Part shown: positions 145-61,796 of the stretch, piece after piece
Position numbering within the stretch: position 1 is the first letter of the stretch
How the letters are laid out: each line of letters opens with the position of its first letter
Assembly: GCF_040436345.1 (NCBI RefSeq)
Contig: NC_133223.1
Span: forward strand, 19,531,613-19,595,612
From: Pagrus major
Taxonomy: Eukaryota; Chordata; Actinopteri; Spariformes; Sparidae
Length of the DNA: 64,000 nucleotides
Reading direction: 5' to 3'
Notes under the pieces: model-generated
The model's input: the letters and a program-made list of their open reading frames with translations, nothing else
Databases searched by the model: none
Told to the model about the DNA's origin: nothing
Made by a program: the position numbers and the translations under genes

Positions 145-25580
<25,436 letters not shown>

Positions 25581-26570: not shown

Positions 26571-28254
<1,684 letters not shown>

Positions 28255-55645: not shown

Positions 55646-55719
55646 GTCAACAATGACGTCCGGGGACGTGTGTCTTCTGGTTTTGATCGTCATGGTCCTT
55701 CCCTGTTCCAGCTTGGAAG
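55646..55719 (+). CDS. acvr1: acvr1 first coding exon (signal peptide)
   Basis: The acceptor CCCCCCTAG precedes 55646 and the ATG is at 55653. The 22 codons plus one base encode a polar start, a hydrophobic core CLLVLIVMVL and a small-residue end PCSSLE, a standard signal peptide. The donor is GGAAG|GTAAGT at 55719, phase 1, compatible with every ectodomain exon downstream. Confidence 0.9.
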
Positions 55720-58700
55720 GTAAGTGTCACAAAACACAGCTTGTCACATCAGTCCTAAAAGGGAAGGCTTTTGCTGCAGGGAGGAGAGGTTCCTGTTCCT
55801 GCATAGACAGACAGATCCGGTTGATTTTAGCTGCCTTGCTAGCCTTGCTGTTGCAAAAGATTACAGTAGGTCATACACTGTCACTAGAGGGTCCTGAGCA
55901 CAGACGTTAGTTGTAAAGATGTGTAATGGATGTCTGTGTTCTCCCAGTCTCTGCGACTCTTGTTAACATACAATCTTTCAGCCTCTCTGTCTTTTTCTGT
56001 CCCCCCTCAAGTCTCTTACGTGCACAGACCAAAAATTCACACAATTTTTTTTTCCTTTCCCCGCCCCTCCTCAGTCTGTCTCCCTCTCATCTGCTGTCTC
56101 TCACTGTTATTTTAAACAACTGCAGTGGCGGTGGATTGCAGTGGAAAGTGGAGTTTTTTTAGGGTGGGAAGCCACACTTGTCCTTGTGCTTACATTGGAT
56201 ATATGTACATGAATCCTTACAAGAGGGTTGTCACAATGCATTTGGAAGCATATTAGAGATTAAAGTCCTCCTAAAAAGCTCTTCATACTATATTCAATGA
56301 TGAATGCTGGCTCACTCCATAATTGTTTTGTTCTTTTGTAGGTGATGTCAGCGTGAGAAACTCTGAATGTCTGTGTGACGGAGAGTCCTGCAGCAGTGGG
56401 GACAGGTGTTTCGGCCAGCAGTGCTTCACCTCTCTCTCTATACAAAATGGGACGTCGATTCTTCAGAAGGGCTGCGTTGAGGCTTACAACGAAGGGTCCT
56501 CACGGTGTGGAAACCCACCAACACCTGAGCTGGTGGTAGAGTGTTGCTACGGGGATTTGTGTAACATGAACATCTCCTTGCAGTCACCGGTGAAAGGTGA
56601 GGCATCTTTACACTGTGTGAAAAATATCCTGCCTCCCAACAGGACAAGTCCCTTATCAGAAGTTCTTCATGGGGCTTTTTCATACGCATGTGCTGGATTG
56701 CCTTGACTCAATTTGACTCGGCAATACAGCCCTGCACGGCAGGGATTTGCCTTTCCACTACAACATGGCTACCAGCTTGAAGGTGTGACTTAAACCGAAG
56801 ATGTGCTTGTCGTGAGTAGTTGTCAAAGGAGCGGCTGTGAATACTCCCTGCAGTATCACCGGAGAATTGTCGCTAACAAGTCATCCATTATTTGTATATT
56901 TAAAAGCTTTTATTACGACGCCGCAAAATCAATAAAAAGTTGGGTTTTAATCAGCAAATTTGACTCAGCATGACTCCCGGAAAGGCTGAAAGCGACCATG
57001 ATGTAACGCTAAATTAAAGCAGATGTCTGAACAGGGACTCGGGAGAGAAACTTAACTTTAAACCACAGAGATTCAGTTAAAAGCTTTCAAGATATAAGGT
57101 GTTTATTGTCACTCTGGTTGTACAAGTACACTCGTGTGAAATTCTTTTGCGTAGATACTCAACTACAGAGATGGCAAATAGTAATTAGTAAATTAGTAGT
57201 AAAGTAACCGCAGCCCGCTCGAAGGCTGGTTGGGTGTGGCTCGGCACGACCTGGGGTGCTTAAACTGGTCATGAAAACGCAAATCAGTGCAGCATTGATT
57301 GACTCGCCGCAGCCAAAAGTGCCAATGGAAAAGCCTGAATTGAGTCTCTTCAATAATGCATACAAATGAAGGAAGACTGTCTCAGTGTTTTCCACAGTTT
57401 TCAGGATTTATTTGTGATAGCTGACCCCTTGCAGAGAGCTGTGCTGGTGGGAAGCACAGATATATCTTACATTTCAGAGTTGGCTGCAAAACTGCTTTAT
57501 TAACAGCCTACCACCAACTTGTGAAATAACTTTACAAATTCTTATAGCTGGCCAAGGAACATTCCTGTAGACTTGTTAATCAGTCAACAGTATCAGCTGC
57601 GTTTTCGTTGCGGCTGGGCGATGTGGTTAAAATCAGTAACAGAGTGTTACAGCAGTCTAACTTAACATTACTTAATATGGTGATTGTATGCTGTAAAAAT
57701 TACACTTCAGATAATCTTAACTGTGTTCAACTGTTCTGCATTACATCAGAAACAACTCTATGGACGTGTAAAATAAAAAATTTCTATACTTTTCATTCAT
57801 TCAACATTTCATTTTCATTCAACAGAGTTTACTTGGCATTACTGCAATATGATACAGCTGGGAGTAATAAATTATGACTAAGGCCTAATATCAATGGAAA
57901 GTTTTGAAAGAATATGTACAAACCATACAAGGTTTGTGCTCTTAATCCTTGAAAATGCTTGAATTTTAATTAGGTGTTTTTAAGGTTTAAAAAGTGCTCG
58001 AATTTTAGATGAAGTGCTTGAAATTGTAGTTGCACTTCAACTTCCTCATAATAAATTGCTTATTTCAATGATTAAATTGGCCCGGACAGGTTATATAAGG
58101 TGCCAAGTGTACAGACAAGTGACACATTTTGAAATATGAACCTTTTTTGTGATTTCCTTCAATGTGTCACCCAGAATTTTGGTTGTTTATAGCATAGTAC
58201 ATCTGATTTAATGTGATGAAGTGAAGTGAGTGTGTATGAACATAAATATATAATTTAACACACCTGTAAGGGGCTAGAAAAATGTGAAAATGTAGTCAAG
58301 TTGGGATGAAGTCTGTCTTTAAAGACATTCTGTATGTGGAAAACACTGGTGTCAATCTGTTTAAATTAGCAGGTTTTAAATATCCAGTTTTCTGTCAAAG
58401 CTCATGTATTTAAGCTCACTGGATTGGTCTTTTCAGTGAGCCATTTCAACTTTCATGTTTTCTGACCTGAGTGAATGCCATTTAATTTAATGGGGTACTA
58501 ATGCTATTGCTCTAATGGGTTTCCCCATATCTCTGTTCCTCTTATCAGATATAGAAGTGTCTGCTGGCAGACCAGTCCTCAGGGAGCAGTTCTGTGTGTG
58601 CAAGGGCGGCGTGTGTGAGCATGACCATCGCCTGCACAGGCCAGCAGTGTTTCTCCTCTCTGAAGATGATTGATGGGGTGGCCGTCCAACAGAAGGGCTG

Positions 58701-61700
58701 CCTGAGGGACGACGAGGAGGGCAGAGCCACCTGTGCCACGCCACCCTCATCGGCCCATGTTGTCAAGTGCTGCCAGGGCCATCTGTGTAACATGAACGTC
58801 ACTGTGCAAGCTCCAGGGAAAGGTGACTTTGTACACACTGCACACATTTCTCTTGGCTGCCGTTCACCGTGGACCTTATGTCACTAAAGATTGTGCAAAA
58901 GTTCCGCTTTGGAGCTGATGTTCAGTTTAATTCATGGCAAGACTAGAAAGCTGTGCGTTTTGTTTTTTTCATAGTTTTATAGTATCTCCCAAGAATAACT
59001 TTAATTATTTCTTGTCGAACGCTTACTTATTTACCAGCTGCGTCTCCTTCATTCCTTCTTCATCTTCATTTGCAGAGGAGGAAGTGAAGCCCCTGATCAA
59101 AGAGGAGCATGAGTGTGTGTGTGAGGGCAGCACGTGTGCAACAGGGAATCGCTGCATGGGCCAGCAGTGCTTCTCTTCTCTGACAGTCAGCGCCGGCTTG
59201 CTGTTGTACCAGAAAGGCTGCTTTAAGATCTACGAGCAGAGCACAATGACCTGCAAGACCCCACCTTCCAGAGACCAGATTGTGGAGTGCTGCCACGGGC
59301 ACCTGTGTAACATGAACAGCACTGTGCAGCTTCCTGTCAAAGGTACAGTAATATACGACCCAGAATGCATCACAAGTACAGTCTGAGAACCACCAGAAAG
59401 ACGTTCAAGAGCTCCATCTGTTGATTGAACTCTTTCTGCATTCAGAATAGGGATGATCATGTGGGCTAGTTCTTGCTGTTATAGACAAAGTAACACACAT
59501 TCATTCCCTCCATCATTCGCCGCTGCAGAGGGCGACGCCATCGCCTGTGAAATTGTCTGCCACGGCTGTTCTGGATGGTTTCTGTTGGCCTGAGTTACAC
59601 CTCTGTGTGGTCACACTCCTGGCACCTTATGAAACAGAAATGGGGGAGACAGTGGGCAAACCAAAGAGAGGTTTTGAATATGATTTAGTCATGGTCCACT
59701 TCCCGACTCTGTCCTCTCTGTCAGAGCTGGCTGACAGGAGCCCAGAGGGTGAAGCCACCTGGGAGTGAAGGAGAGACAGTTAAACACAGAGCCATTGTTG
59801 CCCTTTTTGTTTATTGTTTCACCTTTACTTTTGTCTGTACGGCAGCGTTTTATATTATATTTAGGTGAAAAGTGGTGTGAGGAATTTACTCTTTTACTCT
59901 TACTTTACAAAAAAAAGGCAAGTGGTGTGCATGTTGCTTTTGTCTCATCCTCACAGTATTCCCATATGTTGTAAACCTCCCGTCTTTAGGCGTGTCGCAA
60001 TCACTACTTTTGTTGGATGATATATTGTCCCAGAAAAAACTTTATTAAACAATTTTTTGGGTCATGTCAAGACCATTTAATGTCTCCGATGTAGAGATAA
60101 TATGATACAACAATACTGCAAGAACACCCTTTCAAAGAACAATCAACTTTAAATTCTTAATAATATTCAGACACTGGAATTTGAATGTCAAACAGATATT
60201 AAAATATCCAAAACAATCACACAACACAACAGTCAATATCGATAAGTTGATAAGGTAATTATTGTGACAGGCCTAAGTCTGTCTTGTTACGTTGCCACAA
60301 ATACAACAATCAAGTGAAAACTATATTTTTTAAGCTGTCTAAATACATCCCTTCCCACATGTTTGGTTCGAGTCTAGTGAGTTTCTAAAGTGTGTCGCTA
60401 GTGGTGTGTATGTGGGAGAAACAGTTCATGATTGGAGTGGTTGAGAAAAGGGGATCATTGTCTGTGCTGTAGGCAGAGCTGAGCCGTCTTTCCCTTCGGA
60501 ATGTTTGGAAAGTGTGAATGGTGGTCAGTTCCTTAGGCTGGCCTCCGCTGACTTGATGAGATTCACTCTGTGTGTGTGTGCGTGTGCGGTGTGCGTGTGC
60601 GTGTGCGTGTGTGTGTGTGGTGTGTGTGTGTGTGTGTGTGTTCATGCGCATGTGTGCTCTGTGTGCACCCCCGCCCTCAACTGGATTCTTAAGATGGTCT
60701 GTCGAGTGCTGCAAACCTGTGATTTGGTCGAGCCTCAGTGTGTGTGGTCCTGTCAGAGGAAAAGCTACGGGAGTAACAAGAGTTTTTCCGTCAAACTACA
60801 TAATTATGGTCACCTCTTCTTCTTGTATCCCTGCAGAGTTCTAGTGGACTCTCCCAACTGTTACTTAAGCAGCTTTACTTTGGTCCCGGCCTATTCATTT
60901 GGCAGCCTGGAGGCCACATCCGGCCCGGAAGCAACCTCAGAGTGGCTCAGCATACATAAATCTGATAGATGACAAACTATGTAATCTACATATATATTGT
61001 GTATGTCCATGTAGGTCTCATATGCACATTCTTATAGATGTGATTTACATTTAAGAGACCATATACTCATATCACGTACCTCATCAGATTGCAGCAAGAA
61101 CACGTTGATGCAATGCAATGCAATACGAAATACTAAATCCCCCAGGGGGGGAAACTGAGTGCCATCTTACATATACTGTAGGACAGGCAACAGGTGGGAC
61201 AATAGAAAAAGGAATACACATCTCAAGGCAGTACAAAATAAGGGGAGATCACAGCACCATGAATAAGTTAGTAAGTTAGTTATTTTGTGTGTCAACATTA
61301 TTCATGGCTGGATGTTGTTGTGGTATAGAATATGATATTTTGAACCCCCTATTGTGAAACACCAAACTTTCCAGATAAACTTAGAATAAACCTTGGTATT
61401 TTTACTACATTAATTTGTGTTGGTTTAATATTTGTCATCGCGAAAAGCTAAAAAATTGGCCAAAATTGAATTTGTAACTGAATAGCCCTTCTTTGATCTT
61501 AATCAACCTTTGTGTTCTAAAATGTCTGAAATGATGACCTGATAGTCTAAAGAGAAGTCACACGTTGTAAATGTTTCTCCCCCCACACAGCTGATGAGGT
61601 GTCCAACTACAGCGTGACCACACTGGCTATCGTCATCGTGGCACCCATCATCGTCCTCATCGTCCTCTCTGCCATCGCCATCCTGGTGTTCAGACGCATC

Positions 61701-61796
61701 CACAACAACCAGATGGAGAGACTAACATCACGAGATGCCGAGTATGGAACTATCGACGGCCTCATAGCATCCAACGTGGGGGAAAGCACTCTGGCG
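55653..61796 (+). CDS. acvr1: activin A receptor type 1 (ALK2 class), 5' part, with three tandem ligand-binding-domain exons
   Basis: Type I serine/threonine kinase receptor for BMP/activin ligands at the plasma membrane. Exons: 55646-55719 (ATG 55653, signal peptide), three alternative-looking ectodomain exons 56342-56596, 58549-58822 and 59076-59342, then 61591-61796 (transmembrane and juxtamembrane). The ectodomains carry the ten-cysteine three-finger pattern with GQQCF, a C-x4-C spacing and the CC-x4-CN end typical of the family. The membrane exon ends in EYGTIDGLIASNVGESTLA, closely matching the pre-GS segment of human ACVR1. ACVRL1 and other type I receptors match much less well. The GS box and kinase domain must lie beyond 64000. 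The third ectodomain exon is most like the single human one (CVCEG, IYEQ-x3-TCKTPPS). Linkage to upp2 and ccdc148 agrees with mammals. Which ectodomain exons enter the mRNA cannot be told from sequence. Confidence 0.9.
56342..56596 (+). CDS. acvr1: acvr1 ectodomain exon copy A (divergent)
   Basis: Length 255 nt, phase 1-1, acceptor TTCTTTTGTAG, donor AAAG|GTGAGG. Encodes a complete ten-cysteine three-finger domain (CLCDGESC ... CFGQQCF ... QKGC ... VVECCYGDLCNMN) with sequons NGT and NIS. My manual gapless alignment to copy C over the core gives roughly half identical residues, with identical cysteine spacing. The reading frame is intact and the cysteines are conserved, which argues for selection rather than decay. 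It differs from copy C mostly in the loop between the fifth and seventh cysteines, where type I receptors have ligand-facing residues. Confidence 0.88.
56597..58548 (+). other. acvr1 intron between ectodomain exons A and B
   Basis: 1.95 kb, AT-rich. I see no further ectodomain copy and no clear repeat. Confidence 0.7.
58549..58822 (+). pseudogene. acvr1: acvr1 ectodomain exon copy B, +1 frameshift
   Basis: Acceptor CTTATCAG before 58549 and donor AAAG|GTGACT after 58822 are both intact. The length is 274 nt, one more than a multiple of three, unlike its siblings. Phase-1 reading gives FCVCKGGVCEHDHR, then leaves the domain frame at about 58630-58636 (CGCCTGC, apparently one extra C) and hits TGA near 58674. 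In the +1 frame the rest of the domain is fully open and family-like (TGQQCFSSL, QQKGC, ATCATPP, VVKCCQGHLCNMNV), and all ten cysteine positions are present across the two frames. It is therefore either a recently broken exon or a single-base assembly error. If spliced in as written, it would truncate the receptor. Confidence 0.85.
58823..59075 (+). other. short intron between ectodomain exons B and C
   Basis: 253 bp with normal GT-AG ends. It is long enough to be spliced normally, so a simple size limit would not force exclusive use of B or C. Confidence 0.8.
59076..59342 (+). CDS. acvr1: acvr1 ectodomain exon copy C (canonical-like)
   Basis: Length 267 nt, phase 1-1, acceptor CATTTGCAG, donor AAAG|GTACAG. 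Encodes a full ten-cysteine domain (ECVCEGSTC ... CMGQQCFSSL ... YQKGC ... MTCKTPPS ... VECCHGHLCNMN) with an NST sequon and an acidic N-terminal lead EEEVKPLIKEE. Closest of the three to human ACVR1, including the YEQ-x3-TCKTPPS stretch and the PVKG exit. Most likely the ancestral ligand-binding exon. Confidence 0.93.
59343..61590 (+). other. acvr1 intron between ectodomain exon C and transmembrane exon
   Basis: 2.2 kb. A GT-rich microsatellite lies at 60568-60640 and nothing else is recognised. No fourth ectodomain copy was found. Confidence 0.7.
60568..60640. repeat. (GT)n/(GTGTGC)n microsatellite
   Basis: Alternating GT and GTGTGC units in an acvr1 intron; any reading frame through it is fortuitous. 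Confidence 0.9.
61591..61796 (+). CDS. acvr1: acvr1 transmembrane/juxtamembrane exon
   Basis: Acceptor CCCCACACAG; phase 1 in, phase 0 out at CTGGCG|GTGAGT. Encodes a short linker, a hydrophobic span of about 23 residues (VTTLAIVIVAPIIVLIVLSA onward), a basic stop-transfer FRR, then MERLTSRDAEYGTIDGL and SNVGESTLA. This is the segment just before the GS box of ACVR1. The sequence after the donor is intronic. Confidence 0.92.

Follow-up and report, generated by a model that had tools for sequence, protein, structure and literature searches.

Three ligand-binding-domain exons in red sea bream acvr1

The window analysed here, 64,000 nucleotides (nt) of DNA of the sparid fish Pagrus major, the red sea bream (contig NC_133223.1 of assembly GCF_040436345.1, positions 19,531,613 to 19,595,612 of the forward strand), holds the acvr1 (ALK2) locus of this species. 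In this gene the signal-peptide exon is separated from the transmembrane exon by three consecutive exons for ligand-binding domains (LBDs), and we consider it very probable that they form the extracellular part of acvr1 with the LBD triplication published for clupeocephalan fishes. The feature itself is already known, as fish acvr1 with three LBDs has been in print since 2023 (Trumpp et al., 2023; PMC10501582) and a study of 2026 followed it through the fishes (Jatzlau et al., 2026; PMC13187141). A single receptor with three LBDs in series has been shown in medaka (Oryzias latipes) and, by analogy, is also the most likely product of the gene in Pagrus major.

All exons of this region are on the + strand. 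The coding part of the signal-peptide exon (55653..55719) runs from the ATG to the donor site, ends in phase 1 and is 87% identical to residues 1-23 of Symphorus ACVR1. It is followed by exon A (56342..56596, 255 nt), exon B (58549..58822, 274 nt) and exon C (59076..59342, 267 nt), which represent the outer, membrane-distal domain (LBD1), the middle domain (LBD2) and the inner, membrane-proximal domain (LBD3), respectively, the last being the closest to single-LBD ACVR1. The transmembrane exon (61591..61796) shows 93% identity to ACVR1 of Chelmon, Symphorus and Trematomus. Phase 1 is the entry phase of the three LBD exons and of the transmembrane exon alike, and the exon borders carry AG/GT. 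The coordinates, splice sites and entry phase of the LBD exons given in a preliminary description of this DNA were right. A and C are open, have phase 1-1 and are multiples of three in length, so each could be included or skipped with the frame intact. B has both splice sites and a frame break near 58630, and its entry frame runs into a stop. The preliminary description had counted three complete ten-cysteine domains, which holds for A and C and fails for B. It had also described A and C as open and about half identical with conserved cysteine spacing, in agreement with the gapless alignment of their cores (68 residues each, 48.5% identity, all ten cysteines in register); among the three copies, core identities range from 48.5 to 54.4%.

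The Pfam family Activin_recp was matched above its cutoff of 20.9 bits by A (34 bits), by the second-frame part of B (31.4 bits) and by C (38.3 bits). A profile made from the three window copies scored 109-134 bits on these copies, a circular measure for the copies' own scores, while the best score in 100 simulated windows (first-order Markov chain) was 16.9 bits. No fourth LBD exon was found in the 64-kb window by tblastn with three orthologues, which matched only A, B and C, and Rfam at gathering scores gave zero matches in the window.

Given the phase 1 entry of the LBD exons and the symmetry of A and C, a normal transcript would join signal peptide, A, B, C and transmembrane segment, and would yield one receptor with three LBDs in series. 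Exon C encodes the ancestral, membrane-proximal domain, and it is most likely through this domain that such a receptor touches BMP and activin ligands to signal. A and B are old additions kept under selection which, by analogy with other members of the family, could tune ligand capture or output.

Correspondence of the domains across fishes

The comparison with relatives covered 120 listed proteins of 196 homologues found, with LBDs counted by a profile made in this analysis. The list, which also includes non-teleost single-LBD proteins, holds 65 proteins with three LBDs, 23 with two and 32 with one. The statistics below on three-LBD proteins refer to these 65, and the window gene stands outside them. 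Core identities of A to LBD1, B to LBD2 and C to LBD3 are 85, 93 and 91% for Symphorus and 82, 94 and 88% for Chelmon, while A has only 47-49% identity to LBD2 and LBD3 of the same two fishes. By sequence, A, B and C thus correspond one-to-one to LBD1, LBD2 and LBD3 of other fishes. This matching, the three LBDs of the 65 proteins and the medaka cDNA together make a receptor with serial domains the most likely product.

All ten cysteines are kept in 63 (LBD1), 65 (LBD2) and 64 (LBD3) of the 65 proteins, and in 35/35 percomorphs for each LBD. The percomorph set omits P0023, P0025, P0030, P0033, P0034, P0052 and P0077 and, besides these, the rows taken to be non-percomorph. The conserved cysteines and the separate counterparts of each copy support the view, already expressed in the preliminary description, that the exon triplication is old and that selection followed it. 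That description had further proposed a search for the three exons at other percomorph acvr1 loci; three LBDs are present in each of the 65 proteins above. The mean pairwise difference among the 35 percomorphs is 0.337 for LBD1, 0.210 for LBD2 and 0.178 for LBD3, and the distal LBD is therefore the fastest-changing one among these percomorphs. LBD1 of P0077 looks misannotated, with 31% identity to A.

A tree of 98 LBDs groups C with inner LBDs and B with euteleost middle LBDs, each in a starred set, while A stands beside outer LBDs without a starred set. The tree was built from 68 columns, with 58 of its 94 forks open and six starred, so its deep branching order is unsure. In this quick tree the middle LBDs of Otomorpha stand apart from those of Euteleostei, but separate origins for the two are not supported: a single clade of 21 middle-LBD rows was not rejected (p-AU = 0.501; simpler model, Denticeps middle LBD omitted, Pholidichthys 1of2 and window B included).

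Two other proteins of the list deserve mention. P0088, from the sevengill shark Heptranchias perlo, is ACVR1-like and has two near-identical tandem LBDs, which are sisters in the tree with a star; they represent either an independent recent duplication or an assembly artefact. When the main text of PMC13187141 was searched for terms, neither Heptranchias nor cartilaginous fishes came up, and sharks did so once, regarding another gene. P0076, from the minnow Phoxinus phoxinus, is an ACVR1 whose two LBDs are of the outer and the inner type; it clusters, unstarred, with the sucker and loach proteins (P0059 and P0065), in contrast with the loss of ACVR1 in all Cyprinoidei reported in PMC13187141.

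Residues in contact with ligands

In human ALK2, Tyr74 is required for signalling by activin A and not for that by BMP6, the Y74E change ends activin signalling while BMP6 signalling persists, and a change of Met79 abolished neither (PMC12415261). The equivalent of Tyr74 is present in LBD3 of 60 of the 65 three-LBD proteins, in none of the 65 LBD1 or LBD2 domains, and in all 32 single-LBD proteins of the list. In the middle LBD, position 74 is Asp in 50/65. Position 79, the knob-in-hole methionine, is Met or Leu in LBD3 of every one of the 65 proteins, and LBD2 has Ala there in 55 of them. Within the window, C keeps Tyr and Met at the two positions, B has Asp and Ala, and A has Tyr and Ser.

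A reasonable reading of these residues is that the inner LBD would do the dual job for BMP and activin, while the added LBDs would mostly be without docking of activin in the human manner. Several observations weigh against it. Exon A of Pagrus major itself breaks the inner-only rule, as it has Tyr at position 74. The set of BMP6-contact loop residues is not kept even in LBD3, with Ser41 in 58/65, Asn60 in 22/65 and Asp at position 61 in 19/65 (the third of these contacts is printed as Asp60 in PMC12415261 and is taken here as 61). Moreover, in the alignment of PMC12415261, position 74 is proline in zebrafish and serine in salmon.

If the Asp at position 74 of the middle LBD is likened to human Y74E, the extra LBDs would be activin-blind. 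This leads to a speculative proposal of divided ligand recognition, in which the extra LBDs would capture BMP but be blind to activin, arranged in series with an inner LBD of dual specificity, and the sea bream may in addition be losing its middle LBD; we hold this combination to be rather doubtful. What the locus adds to published knowledge is small, namely a species that may be losing the middle LBD and the residue-level evidence over 65 proteins that the activin contact is mainly kept by the inner one. This offers a direct test of the role of the extra LBDs of ACVR1.

Frame break in exon B

The entry frame of exon B ends at the stop at 58671-58673, and the remainder of the domain continues in another frame. 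When the core is read in two frames, it has all ten cysteines and 93-94% identity to LBD2 of Symphorus and Chelmon, and it keeps 28 of the 28 columns that are invariant across the 35 percomorphs. The divergence of B relative to A and C is the 6th lowest of 36. Since B is otherwise undecayed and the neighbouring matched exons are unbroken, the break should be a recent event, if it is not a local error. We lean towards a local assembly error or a rare allele rather than an established loss, and the break is probably trivial. No report of it was found in searches of one open-access library, and none of the matches listed there deals with Pagrus major acvr1 in its title.

If the break were real, an mRNA containing B would have a truncated reading frame, with its stop well ahead of the next junction. 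An mRNA with a stop so placed is probably degraded by nonsense-mediated decay. In that case, skipping of B, with A joined to C, would give an in-frame receptor with two LBDs.

Gene identity and neighbourhood

The top solved-structure match of both A (E = 4.5e-24) and C (E = 2e-30) is the human ACVR1 ectodomain (PDB 7yru, 9n4k). Other type I receptors matched A and C at about 1e-3 or weaker, leaving ACVR1 more than 20 orders of magnitude ahead of ALK1 and ALK3. Upstream of acvr1 are two syntenic genes, ccdc148 (146..25577, + strand; 11 matched blocks covering residues 95-601 of 601) and upp2, uridine phosphorylase 2 (26574..28254, - strand; 5 blocks, one of which spans an intron). Between the ccdc148 blocks and the Pagrus major protein P0241 there are 12 mismatched residues, none more than four residues away from a block end, at which the alignment overruns the exon edge. 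The matched upp2 exons showed no break of frame. Downstream of acvr1 there is an activin-receptor-like LBD exon matching Activin receptor type-1B (E = 1.2e-11). Human ACVR1 lies by UPP2, CCDC148 and ACVR1C, and the gene order in the window, ccdc148(+), upp2(-) and acvr1(+), is this conserved neighbourhood. The exons for the C-lobe of the acvr1 kinase (Chelmon residues 526-684) were also located downstream.

A search of the genome (785.9 Mb, 25 contigs, with the window on contig C9) with exon C gave at least four scored matches, a lower bound, namely A, B, C and a candidate for acvr1l. This probable paralogue, on contig C16, has one LBD exon and a GS box.

Weighing of the alternative readings

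Several points weigh against a three-LBD receptor in Pagrus major. In this assembly the three LBDs are not open in one frame, as they are in the three-LBD ACVR1 of Clupeocephala, and because B is not open, the literal sequence encodes no three-LBD protein; the gene would take its place in that group by orthology and synteny. No frame break was seen elsewhere in the matched coding blocks (ccdc148, upp2 and the other acvr1 exons), and their integrity is a mild argument against a generally error-rich assembly. The exons for the GS box and the kinase N-lobe were not found, and since their expected place reads N, the whole receptor is not readable. The joining of A, B and C in Pagrus major is predicted from the exon structure, and for the action of added LBDs in ACVR1, the single-domain tests of PMC13187141 cover BMPR2 and TGFBR2. 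A true loss of the middle domain also has to be weighed, which is a sub-question of the serial-domain receptor and compatible with it: the working receptor would consist of A and C through skipping of B. The 274 nt of B with their early stop would fit such a loss, skipping would preserve the frame because A and C are of phase 1-1, the intact ccdc148 and upp2 exons point the same way, two LBDs occur in 23 of the 120 listed homologues (some of these models are apparently incomplete), and LBD losses are published for Clupeoidei (PMC13187141). However, few middle LBDs are less diverged than B, which retains its 28 invariant columns, ten cysteines and both splice sites, while more damage would be expected after a long-standing loss. 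We therefore regard the loss as unlikely, though worth keeping in view.

The three exons might also be alternatives, with splicing choosing one per receptor to give ALK2-class receptors of different ligand preferences. The phase 1 entry of all LBD exons would permit this, the fly gene baboon (babo) operates in this way (PMC12124520), and PMC10501582 reports at least two medaka acvr1 transcripts and mentions alternatively spliced variants with altered LBDs. Among the gene models, P0072 (Pholidichthys leucotaenia isoform 2-T2) joins the signal peptide directly to the middle LBD without LBD1, and the single-LBD teleost models P0083 and P0085 hold C only. But the last two take their start in intron-like sequence directly before exon C, a frequent trait of gene-model artefacts; their start may be such an artefact or an alternative first exon. 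Further, the medaka cDNA and 130 kDa protein carry all three LBDs (PMC10501582), the 65 listed homologues have three LBDs within one protein, and single-LBD splice forms are marginal for the duplicated TGFBR2 of chicken and horse (PMC13187141). The hints from scattered gene models and from the mention of medaka transcripts are weak, and exclusive use of single LBDs is very improbable. An origin of the copies by assembly duplication, or their being relics without function, is scarcely credible: the frame break in B would suit it, but the copies share only 48.5-54.4% identity with each other against 82-94% with their own counterparts in Chelmon and Symphorus, and ten cysteines are present in all 35 percomorphs of the set for each LBD. 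Assembly duplication of one exon is ruled out, decisively for A and C, by this half-identity and the matching of each copy to its own LBD.

Comparison with known systems

The closest known case is medaka Acvr1, for which PMC10501582 reports a cloned full-length cDNA with three predicted LBDs, a protein of larger size on the blot (about 130 kDa), and, in the reporter assay, the highest baseline and the strongest response to BMP6. It is the same gene, with three serial LBDs before the transmembrane segment and an acvr1l paralogue without the triplication. The preliminary description had named a receptor with ectodomains in series as one possible product, and this arrangement is the one found in medaka. 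The two fishes differ in that the three LBDs of medaka are in one cloned cDNA, whereas those of Pagrus major are read from genomic DNA, with B frame-broken in the assembly.

According to PMC13187141, LBD-multimerised receptors of the TGF-beta family comprise ACVR1, ACVR1L, BMPR2 and TGFBR2, and arose by 12 independent LBD multiplications in vertebrates. The study dates the first LBD duplication of ACVR1 to early Osteoglossocephalai and assigns the triplication to all Clupeocephala. Pagrus lies within Clupeocephala, and its acvr1 is thus an ordinary member of the three-LBD group. The same study found that in BMPR2 and TGFBR2 it is the inner LBD that signals (both LBDs in chicken), and that the outer LBDs are neutral or inhibitory, with increased binding in chicken; these binding and signalling tests of single LBDs concern BMPR2 and TGFBR2, unlike the three LBDs of ACVR1 discussed here.

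The claim of the preliminary description that type I receptors have one LBD from one exon is not supported in view of this multiplication in fish ACVR1 (PMC13187141) and of Drosophila babo (PMC12124520). The latter, which likewise encodes a type I receptor, has three LBD exons, the alternative fourth exons 4A, 4B and 4C, each with its own LBD. In the fly, however, each receptor takes one LBD exon, while medaka acvr1 joins its three serially. The human ACVR1/ALK2 ectodomain, although the best structure match for A and C, is a single LBD.

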